Positions 16,775 through 56,727 of a stretch of DNA of 64,000 nt are shown here, piece after piece. Position numbers and translations under genes: made by a program. The notes under the pieces are model-generated. The model worked only from the letters and a program-made list of their open reading frames with translations. It made no database searches and was not told the DNA's origin. Source of the stretch: Bradyrhizobium sp. CCBAU 53340 (GTDB lineage Bacteria; Pseudomonadota; Alphaproteobacteria; Rhizobiales; Xanthobacteraceae); NCBI RefSeq assembly GCF_015291645.1, contig NZ_CP030055.1:124001-188000 (forward strand), read 5' to 3'. Each line of letters starts with the position of its first letter. The first letter of the stretch is position 1.

Positions 16775-16895
16775 CACCTCTCCCGCTTGCGGGAGAGGTC
16801 GCCGCGTAGCGGCGGGTGAGGGCTCTGTCCTCTTGGGGAAATCTCTTTGGGGAGACACCCTCTCCCCAACCCTCCCCCGCAAGCGGGGGAGGGAG
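16775..16895. repeat. Composite palindromic intergenic element
   Basis: Two hairpins. The first is cctctcccgc-ttgc-gggagagg (about 16777-16798). The second is accctcccccgcaagcgggg plus gaggg (about 16869-16893), sharing its core with the inverted repeat around the DUF559 gene at 28.5-28.9 kb. It lies between convergent genes and carries no open frame with family similarity. Confidence 0.75.
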
Positions 16896-26789: not shown

Positions 26790-27209
26790 CTAGCGGGCCT
26801 TCTGGCCCGCCTTCAGCGCGCGCTCCGAGTAACGCTGGGCGACCTCCGCCCGGCAGAATGCCGTGAACGAGAGATACATGGTACCGGACTTGTTCCGGTA
26901 CTTGATGTCGCATGCGTGCATCTCGCGCTTGTAGGCCTGTGTCTGCGCGGCACTGAGGCCGGGCTTGAAGTCCGCCTCGCACTTCTTTTCGACGGCGGCG
27001 CCGAGCTGGACGTCGCCGCTCGCGGTCAGCTCGCAATCCTTGAACACCTTCATCGCGCTTTCGCAGCTCTTCTGTGCGCTGATGGCATCGACGACCTCGT
27101 CCAGTGTCATGGATGTATCCATGCAGACCATGGCACGCGCCGGGCCGGCGACCGACAGAACGATGGCCGCAGCGGCCAGAGAAGCAGCAAGAACGGATTT
27201 CGAAAGCAT
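26790..27209 (-). CDS. Small secreted protein, unknown function
   Basis: 139 residues from ATG 27209 with AGGAGA upstream. A clear signal peptide ([20 protein letters not shown]) precedes a mature region of about 115 residues with six or seven cysteines: [44 protein letters not shown]. It has [14 protein letters not shown] helices and is probably a disulfide-bonded helical periplasmic protein. No family recognised. It is divergent from pheS. Confidence 0.78.
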
Positions 27210-27361
27210 CGCAAAGGTCTCCTCGTATCCTGTCTTGGTGCCGGGTCCCCGCGCGAGGTTCAACCCAGCCGCTCGAGAAGCCGAAAACACCGGCTTTTTG
27301 CTTGACGTTACGCCCTTCGGGCGGCGACAACCCAGCCGAATTTGGAGCCAAGGATTTGCCT

Positions 27362-28444
27362 GTGTCCGACCTCGCAACGCTTGAACCATCCATCCTCGAC
27401 CAGATCGCCGCCGCCGGCGATGAAGCGGCGCTCGAAGCGGTGCGCGTCGCAGCGCTCGGCAAGAAGGGCTCGATCTCGGCGCTGCTCGCCACGCTCGGCA
27501 AGATGTCGCCCGACGAGCGCAAGACGCAAGGCGCGGCGATCAACCAGGCCAAGGACAAGATCACCGAGGCGCTCGCCGCACGGCGCGACGTGCTGAAGTC
27601 GGCTGCGCTCGATGCGCGGCTCGCCTCCGAGACCGTCGACGTCACGCTCCCCTTACGCGATGCACAGGCCGAGGCCGGCCGCATCCATCCGCTCAGCCAG
27701 GTCTGGGATGAGCTGACCACGATCTTCGCCGACATGGGATTCTCGGTCGCCGAAGGTCCTGACATCGAGACCGACGACTACAACTTCACCAAGCTGAATT
27801 TCCCGGAAGGCCATCCGGCGCGCGAGATGCACGACACGTTCTTCTTCCATCCGAAAGAGGACGGCTCGCGCATGCTGCTGCGAACCCACACCTCGCCGGT
27901 GCAGGTGCGCACTATGCTGAGCCAGAAGCCGCCGATCCGCGTGATCTGCCCGGGCCGCACCTACCGCATCGATTCGGACGCGACCCACACGCCGCAATTC
28001 CACCAGGTCGAAGGCCTCGTCATCGACAAGCATTCGCATCTCGGCCACCTCAAATGGATCCTGCACGAGTTCTGCAAGGCGTTCTTCGAGGTCGACCACA
28101 TCAACATGCGCTTCCGCCCGTCGTTCTTCCCGTTCACCGAGCCGTCGCTGGAAGTCGACATCCAGTGCCGCCGCGACAAGGGCGAGATCCGCTTCGGCGA
28201 GGGCGAGGACTGGCTCGAGATTCTCGGCTGCGGCATGGTGCATCCGAACGTGCTGCGCGCCTGCGGCATCGATCCCGACGAGTACCAGGGCTTTGCCTGG
28301 GGCATGGGCATCGACCGCATCGCCATGCTGAAATACGGCATCGCCGATCTGCGCCAGCTGTTCGACAGCGACGTCCGCTGGCTGAGCCATTACGGCTTCA
28401 AGCCGCTCGAAGTGCCGACTCTCGCGGGAGGGCTGAGCTCGTGA
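27362..28444 (+). CDS. pheS: Phenylalanine--tRNA ligase alpha subunit
   Basis: 360 residues from GTG 27362 ([12 protein letters not shown]), with AAGGA seven bases upstream; TTG 27356 is a weaker alternative. An N-terminal coiled coil (about 1-90) binds tRNA. The class II core has motif 2 in [19 protein letters not shown] and motif 3 in [30 protein letters not shown] is the typical active-site region. It forms the alpha2beta2 synthetase with PheT, but pheT is displaced by 541 bases holding a DUF559 gene. Confidence 0.97.
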
Positions 28445-28476
28445 TGGCGCTGCTCGGCCATACGCCGACTCTCTCC

Positions 28477-28524
28477 GTTCCCTCCCCCCTTGTGGGGGAG
28501 GGTCAGGGAGGGGGGTAGCCGCGG
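28477..28524. repeat. Left arm of the inverted repeat flanking the DUF559 gene
   Basis: 48 bases. Its reverse complement equals the right arm at 28887-28935 except for one missing base. The purine-rich part GGGAGGGGGG (28506-28515) lies 9 bases before the DUF559 ATG and can serve as its Shine-Dalgarno sequence. The arm also contains an internal imperfect hairpin ccctcccccc/gggggaggg. Confidence 0.9.
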
Positions 28525-28989
28525 ATGCCGCACGCAGTTGTGAGCGAGCGTCAGCGCAGCCGGGCGAAGCAACTTCGCCGGACGATGACGCGTGCTGAGA
28601 CACAGCTGTGGCGCTACCTGAAAGCCAATCGCATGGATGGCGTGGGCATTCGCCGTCAAACGCCGATCGGAAACTACGTCGCCGATTTTGTATGCTTCGC
28701 CTCGAAGCTGATCATCGAGATCGATGGCGAGTCACACGACTTTGAAGAGCGGCAAAAGGCCGATCAGCGTCGCGACGCGTTCTTCGCCGCTGAGGGCTTT
28801 CAAGTTCTGCGCTTCACCAATGAGCAGGTGATGTCGAATCTAGAGGGAGTTGTTGAGGCAGTCCGCCAAGCGGCTTCTGCCGCCGCCCGCGGCTCACCCC
28901 CCTCCCTGACCCTCCCCCACAAGGGGGGAGGGAACACTAACACCGATCAAAGCAATTCAACCGACAAGAGCCGAGGCACACAGCCATGA
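28525..28989 (+). CDS. DUF559 (Vsr-like PD-(D/E)XK) endonuclease-domain protein inserted in pheST
   Basis: 154 residues. Core motifs: [11 protein letters not shown] (E25), [15 protein letters not shown] (D54), IIEIDGESH (E65, D67, H71), then [20 protein letters not shown]; all expected active-site positions are present. The ATG directly abuts the left repeat arm. The C-terminal 40 residues (including [13 protein letters not shown]) are encoded by the right repeat arm and the old intergenic sequence. The stop overlaps the pheT start (ATGA), so it is co-transcribed and coupled with the synthetase genes. Substrate and biological role are unknown. Confidence 0.88.
28887..28935. repeat. Right arm of the inverted repeat flanking the DUF559 gene
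   Basis: 49 bases, inverted relative to 28477-28524 with a single extra base (ggctca versus ggcta). It lies inside the 3' coding part of the DUF559 gene. I see no target-site duplication outside the two arms. Confidence 0.9.
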
Positions 28990-31394
28990 AATTCACCCTC
29001 TCCTGGCTGAAGGATCATCTCGACACCGACGAGCCGCTCGAAAAGCTCGCCGACAAGCTCACCATGATCGGGCTCGAGGTCGAGAACATCGAGGACAAGG
29101 CGAAGGCGCTCAAGGCTTTCACCATCGCGAAGGTGATTTCGGCCGAGCAGCATCCGAACGCCGATCGCCTGCGCGTCTGCATGGTCGACACCGGTGACGG
29201 CGGTGCGCCGGTGCAGGTGGTGTGCGGGGCGCCGAACGCGCGCGCCGGGCTCGTCAGCGTGTTCTCTCCGCCCGGCACCTACATTCCCGGCAAGGACATC
29301 ACGCTCGGCGTCGGCACCATCCGCGGCGTCGAGAGCCGCGGCATGCTGTGCTCGGCGGCCGAGCTGCAGATCTCCAACGACCATGACGGCATCATGGAAT
29401 TGCCGGCGGATGCACCAATCGGCGCCGGATACGCCGAATGGGCCGCGCTCGGCGATCCCGTGATCGAGATCAATCTGACGCCGAACCGGCAGGATTGCAC
29501 CGGCGTGCACGGCATCGCGCGCGATCTCGCGGCCGCCGACATGGGCAAATTTAGGGATCCCGGGATCAAGCAGATCAAGGGAGAATTCCCTTGCCCGGTG
29601 AAGGTCACGGTCGAGGACGCCAATCTGTGCCCCGGCTTTGCGCTGCGCCTCGTGCGCGGGGTCAAGAACGGCCCCTCGCCGGAATGGCTGCAGAAGCGGC
29701 TGGCCGCGATCGGACTGCGGCCCATCAACGCGCTGGTCGACATCACCAACTTCATGACCTACGACCGCGCGCGCCCGCTGCACGTGTTCGACGCCAAGAA
29801 GGTGAAGGGCAATCTCGTCGTGCGCCGAGGCCGCGACGGCGAGACGCTGCTCGCGCTCGACGGCCGTACCTACAATCTCGATGCTTCGATCTGCGTCATC
29901 GCCGATGAGCACGGCGTCGAATCGCTCGCCGGCATCATGGGCGGCGAGGCCTCCGGCTGCGACGAGAACACCACCGATGTGCTGATCGAATCGGCGCTGT
30001 GGAACGAGATCAACATCGCCCAGACCGGCCGCAAGCTCGGCATCAATTCGGACGCACGCTACCGCTTCGAACGCGGCGTCGATCCCGCCTTCATGGTGCC
30101 GGGGCTGGAGCTCGCGACCAAGCTGGTGATGGAGATATGCGGCGGCACGCCGTCCGAGAACGTGGTGGTCGGCAAGGCCTTCGGCGACGACCGCATCATC
30201 GAATTCCCTGTGACCGAGGTGAAGCGTCTGTCCGGCATCGAGGTGCCGATGCCGGAGATGAAGCGCATCCTGAGCCATCTCGGCTTCATGATGGCGGGTG
30301 CAGGCCCGGTGGTGAAGGTTGCGGTGCCGTCGTGGCGCATCGATGTGCACGGCAAGGCCGACATCGTCGAGGAGGTCGTCCGCATCTACGGCGTCGACAA
30401 GGTGCCGATGACGCCGTTCGAGCGCGGCGAGGACGCGCGCAAATCGGTGCTGACGCCGCTGCAGCTTCGTACCCGCCGTGCGCGGCGCGCTCTGGCGAGC
30501 CGCGGCATGGTCGAAGCCGTGACGTGGTCGTTCATCACCAAGCCTGCGGCGCAATTGTTCGGCGGCGGACAGCGCGAGCTCGAAGTGGCCAATCCGATCG
30601 CCGCCGATCTCTCCGACATGCGGCCGACGCTGCTGGCGGGCCTGGTCGCGGCCGCGCAGGCCAATGCCGATCGCGGCTATGGCGATGTTGCCCTGTTCGA
30701 GGTCGGGCAAGTCTTCAAGGGCGATCGCCCGCAGGATCAGTTCATGGCCGCGAGCGGCTTGCGCCGCGGACTTGCATCCTCGGAAGGTCTCGGCCGGCAC
30801 TGGACGGGCTCGGCGCAGGCTGACGTGTTCGATGCCAAGGCTGATGCACTGGCCGTGCTGGCTGCAGCCGGCGCACCGATGCAGGCGCTTCAAATCGTCG
30901 CCGGCGGTCCTGCATGGCTGCATCCGGGCCGCTCCGGCACGATCCAGATCGGGCCGCAGAACGTGCTCGGATACTTCGGCGAGATGCATCCGCGCGCGCT
31001 GGAGGCGCTCGGCGCCGACGGCCCGCTCGTGGTGTTCGAGGTGACGCTCGACCGCATTCCAGAAGCCAAGAAGAAGCCGACCCGCGCCAAGCCGCTGATC
31101 GAGCTGTCGGCGTTCCAGCCTGTCTCGCGCGACTTCGCCTTCATCGTCGACCGCACCGTCAAGGCCGGCGACATCGTCCGCGCCGCGCAAGGCGTCGACA
31201 AGAAGCTGATCACCGGCGTCAACGTCTTCGACGTCTATGAAGGCAGGGGCATCGACGACGGCAAGAAGTCTGTTGGCATCGCAGTGACGATCCAGCCGCG
31301 CGAGAAGACGCTGACCGACCAGGAGATCGAAGCCGTGGCCGCGAAGATCGTGGCGGAGGTCACGAAGAAGACCGGCGGCACCTTGAGGGCGTGA
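28986..31394 (+). CDS. pheT: Phenylalanine--tRNA ligase beta subunit
   Basis: 802 residues, complete. The N-terminal tRNA-binding (EMAP-like) domain contains [18 protein letters not shown]. The B3/B4 editing domain includes the [20 protein letters not shown] region, B5 follows, and the catalytic-like core has [12 protein letters not shown]. The C-terminal FDX-ACB anticodon-binding domain has [20 protein letters not shown] and [20 protein letters not shown]. The start ATG overlaps the stop of the preceding DUF559 gene. Nineteen bases later the TauE/SafE permease gene begins. Confidence 0.98.
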
Positions 31395-56704: not shown

Positions 56705-56727
56705 GCCTCCCCCCTGAAGGGGGAGGC
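56705..56727. repeat. Palindrome between dnaK and dnaJ
   Basis: GCCTCCCCC-CTGAA-GGGGGAGGC, a strong hairpin in the dnaK-dnaJ gap. It may reduce dnaJ relative to dnaK expression by stabilising or partly terminating the upstream transcript. Confidence 0.7.

Follow-up and report, generated by a model that had tools for sequence, protein, structure and literature searches.

Repetitive extragenic palindromes (REPs) tagged with GTAG or CGTC form inverted dimers of short hairpins, in Bradyrhizobium too, and PMC3733652 names RAYTs for the GTAG repeats and no dedicated enzyme for the CGTC repeats. Another group, TM_ECO (earlier BoxC or PIT), follows the formula 5'-CCCTCNCCC-N3-6-GGGNGAGGG-N3-GGGNGAGGG with one stem mismatch permitted, and has 3610 occurrences in 262 proteobacterial genomes (PMC4666352). 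According to the same source, the TM_ECO triplex was shown in vitro, without support in vivo, TM sites are tied to genomic instability, and no mobility activities were ever detected near TM_ECO sites. The DNA analyzed here, a 64,000-nt stretch of Bradyrhizobium sp. CCBAU 53340 (NZ_CP030055.1; hereafter the window, with positions counted from its first letter), carries a gene for a DUF559 protein between pheS and pheT, framed by two inverted arms of the BoxC/TM type. The pairing of DUF559 genes with such hairpins is general and extends far beyond the genus, and the DUF559 protein of the window is likely a dedicated nuclease partner of its flanking repeats, acting on them in trans as RAYTs act on REPINs.

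The locus resembles the RAYT/REPIN system, as described in PMC8049555, in its conserved and vertically inherited gene, its flanking inverted palindromes, the inverted pairs that lack the gene and the higher number of copies in E. coli with the gene; the loose parallel to REPs and RAYTs drawn in the initial annotation is apt. It differs in the enzyme, which is predicted to be a DUF559/PD-(D/E)XK Vsr-like nuclease and not an HUH/Y1 transposase, and in the repeats, which are polypyrimidine/polypurine with a mirror third strand and not of the GTAG type of PMC3733652. With BoxC/PIT/TM_ECO it shares the pyrimidine-loop-purine-loop-purine architecture, the core of which was found next to E. coli ycjD, whereas the nuclease partner is proposed here, the words "DUF559" and "endonuclease" being absent from the main text of PMC4666352. 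From the Vsr mismatch endonuclease and the Caulobacter DUF559 protein VsrA it is set apart by the link to repeats ("triplex," "BoxC," and "palindrom" do not appear in the text of the VsrA paper, PMC12907096), and from the EDxHD homing endonuclease I-Bth0305I by the position of the gene, which does not lie in an intron and whose clade (clade A) tracks its pheST neighbors. Literature titles and abstract openings, with full texts on DUF559 hardly covered, gave no link of DUF559 to REP, BoxC, or triplex repeats.

Architecture of the flanking arms

The left arm (28477..28524, 48 nt, + strand) and the right arm (28887..28935, 49 nt, - strand) are, as initially annotated, inverted copies that differ by one base, which is an inserted G. 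Over 40 nt they are 100% complementary. From 28480 to 28514 the left arm reads CCCTCCCCC-CTTGT-GGGGGAGGG-TCA-GGGAGGGGG, that is, a pyrimidine arm (28480-28488), a loop (28489-28493), a purine arm (28494-28502), a second loop (28503-28505), and a third stretch (28506-28514) that mirrors the purine arm. The order corresponds to the class II layout of BoxC/PIT/TM, with a 9-nt pyrimidine arm, a loop of 3 to 6 nt, a 9-nt purine arm, a loop of 3 nt, and a second 9-nt purine stretch; the third stretch differs at one position from the published one. On the + strand, the right arm presents the complements of the third strand (28898-28906), of the purine arm (28910-28918), and of the pyrimidine arm (28924-28932), separated by loops at 28907-28909 and 28919-28923. 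The hairpin core CCCTCCCCC-N5-GGGGGAGGG has two exact places in the window; allowing up to three mismatches gives five matches (two of which overlap at a single site), where shuffled sequence gives a mean of 0.06. Two more pyrimidine/purine hairpins of like general type lie at 16871-16893 and 56705-56727. No Rfam family was found within 28300-29100, and the hairpins fit neither the GTAG nor the CGTC tag of the REPs, since their outer end reads GTTCCC and GTAG is present in the left arm only on the inner side, beyond the third strand.

The mirror relation was assessed in 149 hairpins beside DUF559 genes of named genomes, with A and T interchangeable and with swapped stems (100 trials) as the control. 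The third strand matches the mirror of its own stem at 9/9 positions in 52 hairpins and at 8/9 or more in 98, whereas swapped stems gave means of 5.9 and 41.4 and maxima of 11 and 53, respectively. Among the asymmetric stems (n = 134), the mirror reaches 9/9 in 44 and an unmirrored copy in 7. Because the third strand matches the mirror of its own stem beyond what swapped stems give, it changes together with the stem, and this covariation in sequence supports triplex formation indirectly. The motif keeps one polarity, even though both orders would form a palindrome: in the hairpins beside DUF559 genes that have one nearly pure pyrimidine arm, this arm comes first in 144/144 and the purine arm in 0/144. 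Potential G-quadruplex motifs are also enriched near DUF559 genes (0.355 per bin on the inward strand and 0.194 on the outward strand; 44/80 loci), but their sequence overlaps that of the mirror third strand, and these counts do not tell the G-quadruplex and triplex ideas apart.

DUF559 genes and hairpins across genomes

Arms are found around most other DUF559 copies of the genus. An exact inverted match of at least 16 nt within 250 bp on both sides is present at 67/92 loci, compared with 0/1200 sliding positions and 0/205 genes from twenty 20-kb stretches; lowering the required length to 12 nt gives 79/92, 20/1200, and 1/205. Other genera of the class gave 7/29 at 16 nt or more, which is weak on its own, and 15/29 at 12 nt. 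Loci cut by contig ends were omitted from this comparison (3/24 of clade A, 1/40 of the extra set, and 1/30 of the class set, plus L017, L018, L033, and L105). A wider set of 80 named loci includes Proteobacteria, Chloroflexi, Nitrospirae, Chlamydiae, Spirochaetes, and Melainabacteria-type genomes. Here, 147 pyrimidine/purine hairpins fall in the 155 flank bins within 250 bp of the gene (0.95 per bin), the density at 250 to 3000 bp being 0.007 to 0.079 per bin, and 73/80 loci have at least one hairpin within 250 bp. Among 30 DUF559-bearing genomes identified by way of named loci, 28 contain the published TM core itself (range over the set, 0 to 109 copies), and the backward control gave none in 29 genomes and one in the remaining genome. 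In the Picosynechococcus plasmid pAQ6 (L444), a DUF559 gene has CCCCTAAATCCCC-type repeats on its flanks, which may be a divergent version of the repeat in cyanobacteria.

The number of repeats follows the presence of the gene at the scale of whole genomes. Copies of a generic pattern, YYYYCYCCC-N5-GGGRGRRRR, were tallied in the draw of 289 Alphaproteobacteria genomes that also served for the DUF559 search, with an E value of 1e-20 or better defining a strong DUF559 match. At least three copies are present in 46/67 genomes with DUF559 and in 14/222 others (odds ratio 32.5, p = 1e-24), and the backward pattern gave 44 matches versus 1072 forward in the DUF559 genomes and 102 versus 231 in the rest. 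Since the repeats beside DUF559 genes are counted too, the tests were redone after subtraction of a genome's own arms for each DUF559 match: 36/67 genomes (odds ratio 17.3) keep at least three copies with two subtracted and 30/67 (odds ratio 12.0) with four, so that the links are weaker but kept. Within 26 families compiled by hand, the DUF559 side has the higher count in 21 families, the lower in 2, and an equal one in 3. In the genus, once own arms are taken out, an A/B-type repeat is present in 50/56 genomes with clade A or B (median 7) versus 52/90 without (median 1; p = 7e-5).

A comparable pattern is seen in E. coli, whose DUF559 gene, ycjD, has sapF and fabI as its neighbors. MG1655 carries a TM core in the ycjD-fabI gap, and an apparent degenerate copy contains the stop codon of ycjD; TM cores also follow ycjD in KE47 and H240. 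Of 5426 E. coli genomes, 5372 match a sapF-region query and 3365 a ycjD query. In a sample spread evenly over the ranking (60 rows, one plasmid row dropped), 37 genomes with ycjD have 5 to 24 TM-bearing query places (median 15) and 22 without it have 2 to 11 (median 4; p = 5e-10, in a lineage-structured sample). The 471-bp query also takes in the fabI side and the ycjD end, which adds about one home place to each count, and "without ycjD" refers to genomes whose best (fabI) place has no annotated copy. The gene is present in strain 55989, for which 29 TM sites are published, and IHE3034, with one (PMC4666352), has efflux genes at that place instead, as do the two ycjD-lacking sites that were inspected.

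The type of the arms goes with the clade of the gene: hairpins are of TTGT type in clade A, of TTGC type in clade B, and of a CTCTCCC/GCTTGC form in clade C. An arm type was assigned at 78/92 loci, the rest having no recognized type, and 77 loci could be scored. Nearest neighbors have the same arm type in 75/77 (shuffled mean 14.2), and in 69 when pairs of at least 85% identity are left out.

The DUF559 protein and the pheS-pheT interval

The gene (28525..28989, + strand) encodes a protein of 154 amino acids that matches PF04480 with an E value of 9.4e-37 and 125.7 bits, against a curated cutoff of 20.6, which confirms the initial assignment to DUF559. Apart from a sub-threshold REase match, this is the only domain retrieved in the Pfam scan, and an HUH/Y1 transposase domain (Y1_Tnp, PF01797) is absent from it. 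The predicted fold is that of the Vsr-like branch of the PD-(D/E)XK superfamily, also as annotated, and I-Bth0305I is a close structural neighbor. The further claim that all active-site residues are present is consistent with the invariance of E65, D67, and H71 in an alignment of 60 sequences, and the nuclease activity itself is a prediction; D54 is invariant in 32 sequences and conserved at 90% or more in the set of 60. This set consists of the window protein and 59 of 80 fetched loci, 12 having been dropped for a stop inside the stretch and others not chosen. An assignment to an anti-phage defense system was considered and rejected, as PADLOC gave weak matches only (best E value 2e-4, 17.2 bits, 51 residues against a model of 1078 positions).

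The gene is inserted between pheS (27365..28444, + strand, inside the open reading frame 27104-28444, with a start codon of our choice), which retains its TGA stop at the insertion point, and pheT (28986..31394, + strand, from the open reading frame list). Its ATG directly follows the left arm, and a purine tract (28506..28515, + strand) lies about 9 nt upstream, at Shine-Dalgarno distance, so that the left arm would also provide a candidate ribosome-binding site; the distance from the left hairpin end to the gene is constant in every clade A locus listed. The right arm is translated as part of a C-terminal tail (28896..28986, + strand) that is predicted to be disordered, with mean predicted local distance difference test (pLDDT) values of 65, 49, 51, and 55 in blocks from residue 121 on. 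The DUF559 stop overlaps the pheT start as ATGA, which would hold pheT translation coupled. The start, the purine tract, the translated right arm, and the ATGA overlap of the initial annotation were all retrieved on the sequence.

The initial annotation also proposed that the gene and its arms move as a cassette. This was not borne out, and a moving cassette is not retained as the main account: all 24 clade A loci adjoin pheS, with pheT visible in the 22 that are not cut by a contig end, and in 21 loci the DUF559 distances track those of pheT (Mantel r 0.91) and of pheS (Mantel r 0.81), with third positions making up 10005 of the 14702 pairwise nucleotide differences. The window gene thus appears to have been inherited vertically, with occasional loss. 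A search with only the window protein as the query (E value 1e-10) found DUF559 relatives in 34/72,556 plasmid records, some of them chromosome sized, and in 2/50,697 phage records. What is dispersed and polymorphic is the hairpin pair without a gene. As in REPIN populations, such inverted pairs occur elsewhere in the same genome, at 688788/688917 and 7537415/7537495. At two intergenic sites, strains differ in whether they have A-type pairs, pairs from other hairpin families, or no element at all, and at one of these sites, judged by eye, both arms change type together while the inner and outer sequences are still recognizable.

The interval itself varies among related strains. In 59 genomes, 57 intervals were readable and two pheS loci were not; 11 are empty, 8 hold clade A, 18 hold clade C, and 20 have other contents. 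The empty junctions read CTGAGCTCGTGAAATTC, with a 4-nt stop/start overlap that is GTGA in 10 and ATGA in 1. Clades A and C, which are 43 to 54% identical, thereby occupy the same place in different strains. The other contents are an unrelated gene without a Pfam match (L139, 1845-2396), another unrelated gene (L154), eight inserts of about 400 bp (the one checked, L167, is an ASCH-domain gene), two longer inserts, seven short stretches, and an arm pair without a DUF559 gene (L184). With different one-gene inserts in different strains, the pheS/pheT overlap looks like an insertion hotspot for small genes. In L191 and L196, the interval is about 1050 bp long and holds a clade C DUF559 gene with extra sequence, and in several closed chromosomes of the genus a further DUF559 clade (L197 to L201) is located about 3 kb away from the first base.

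Roles considered for the DUF559 protein

The presence of DUF559 genes beside triplex-type repeats, together with the higher copy numbers in gene-bearing genomes, makes DUF559 the likely missing enzyme that spreads these repeats. The Vsr-like enzyme would recognize the hairpin or triplex when it is extruded or single stranded and would nick or cut there, and the pair of hairpins would then be installed at another intergenic site by repair, through copying or conversion. Pairs that lack the gene would derive from the unit that has it and would be non-autonomous. Several observations weigh against a partnership of this kind. About one third of the 149 hairpins stay below 8/9 in the mirror test, 21/67 DUF559 genomes have fewer than three copies of the pattern, 14/222 others have at least three, and the within-family sign test with two copies subtracted per gene falls to 14 higher, 5 lower, and 7 ties (p = 0.03). 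Genomes of the genus with clade C and neither A nor B reach 26 A/B-type copies, and the repeats therefore outlive that enzyme or do not need it. Neighbors below 70% and below 60% identity share the arm type in 6/77 and 0/77 loci, under the shuffled mean of about 14, and linkage alone could produce the match of arm and clade near the gene, so that the genome-wide tests weigh more; these, in E. coli, the genus, and the class, ignore kinship and genome size. No target-site duplication was found by eye, in agreement with the initial annotation. Calls of DUF559 absence are also soft because the profile search can miss genes: a control gave no PF04480 in E. coli, though ycjD of MG1655 matches with an E value of 1.4e-49.

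The main rival, which we regard as possible but rather unlikely, has DUF559 as a Vsr-like, structure-specific repair or surveillance nuclease that is needed in genomes rich in triplex hairpins and cuts or clears these structures instead of spreading them. The Vsr-like fold, the instability linked to TM sites (PMC4666352), and the SOS induction and proposed mismatch-repair role of Caulobacter VsrA, which has a DUF559 domain (PMC12907096), would all agree with such a function; the bracketing of the gene by repeats and the arm type proper to each clade are left unexplained by it. It is improbable that the gene and arms form a homing-type cassette, which would cleave the empty pheS-pheT junction and insert a copy of itself there. 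The structural proximity to I-Bth0305I and the existence of empty sites at an overlap that holds two DUF559 clades and other genes across strains speak for homing, but the correlation of clade A with pheT distances fits vertical inheritance, clade B and other DUF559 genes lie at other sites, where neither pheS nor pheT is adjacent, and homing gives no account of the dispersed gene-less repeats.

Two further accounts separate the nuclease from the repeats. That the hairpins are mere regulators (terminators or shields of ribosome-binding sites) or hitchhikers around small accessory genes, with the nuclease unrelated, would agree with the purine tract that the left arm places at ribosome-binding distance. 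It is made very improbable by the sharp decay of hairpin density with distance at the 80 loci, by the lack of 16-nt inverted pairs around all 205 other genes, and by the genome-wide association of copy number. Least credible of all is that a RAYT (Y1/HUH transposase) moves the repeats with DUF559 as a passenger. A Y1_Tnp match is present in 34/60 genomes of the genus, this one included, but the RAYT-like gene of this genome is flanked by a different, 25-nt terminal repeat, with no pyrimidine/purine hairpin in the 4.5 kb read, and 26/60 genomes gave no Y1_Tnp match in a search that can miss genes, among them G002, G005, G008, G018, G022, and G036, which carry A-type repeats. This RAYT-like Y1 transposase gene (L335, 1916-2617), with its 25-nt inverted repeats GGAATTACGGTGACAGTGCACTAAA, resembles the TIRYT genes of PMC3733652.

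Chances appear evenly balanced that DUF559 represents a second, RAYT-independent class of repeat-driving enzymes, Vsr-like and reading a triplex or hairpin, that spreads BoxC/PIT/TM repeats across many phyla and has YcjD as a member. This would give a parallel to RAYT/REPIN that uses a different DNA structure and an enzyme unrelated to RAYTs, and would point to a likely role for the DUF559 domain of unknown function. By tying TM repeats to one nuclease family, it offers, with ycjD of E. coli K-12, an enzyme that can be tested directly. If true, it would settle who moves the intrastrand-triplex repeats, with YcjD as the member accessible in the laboratory.
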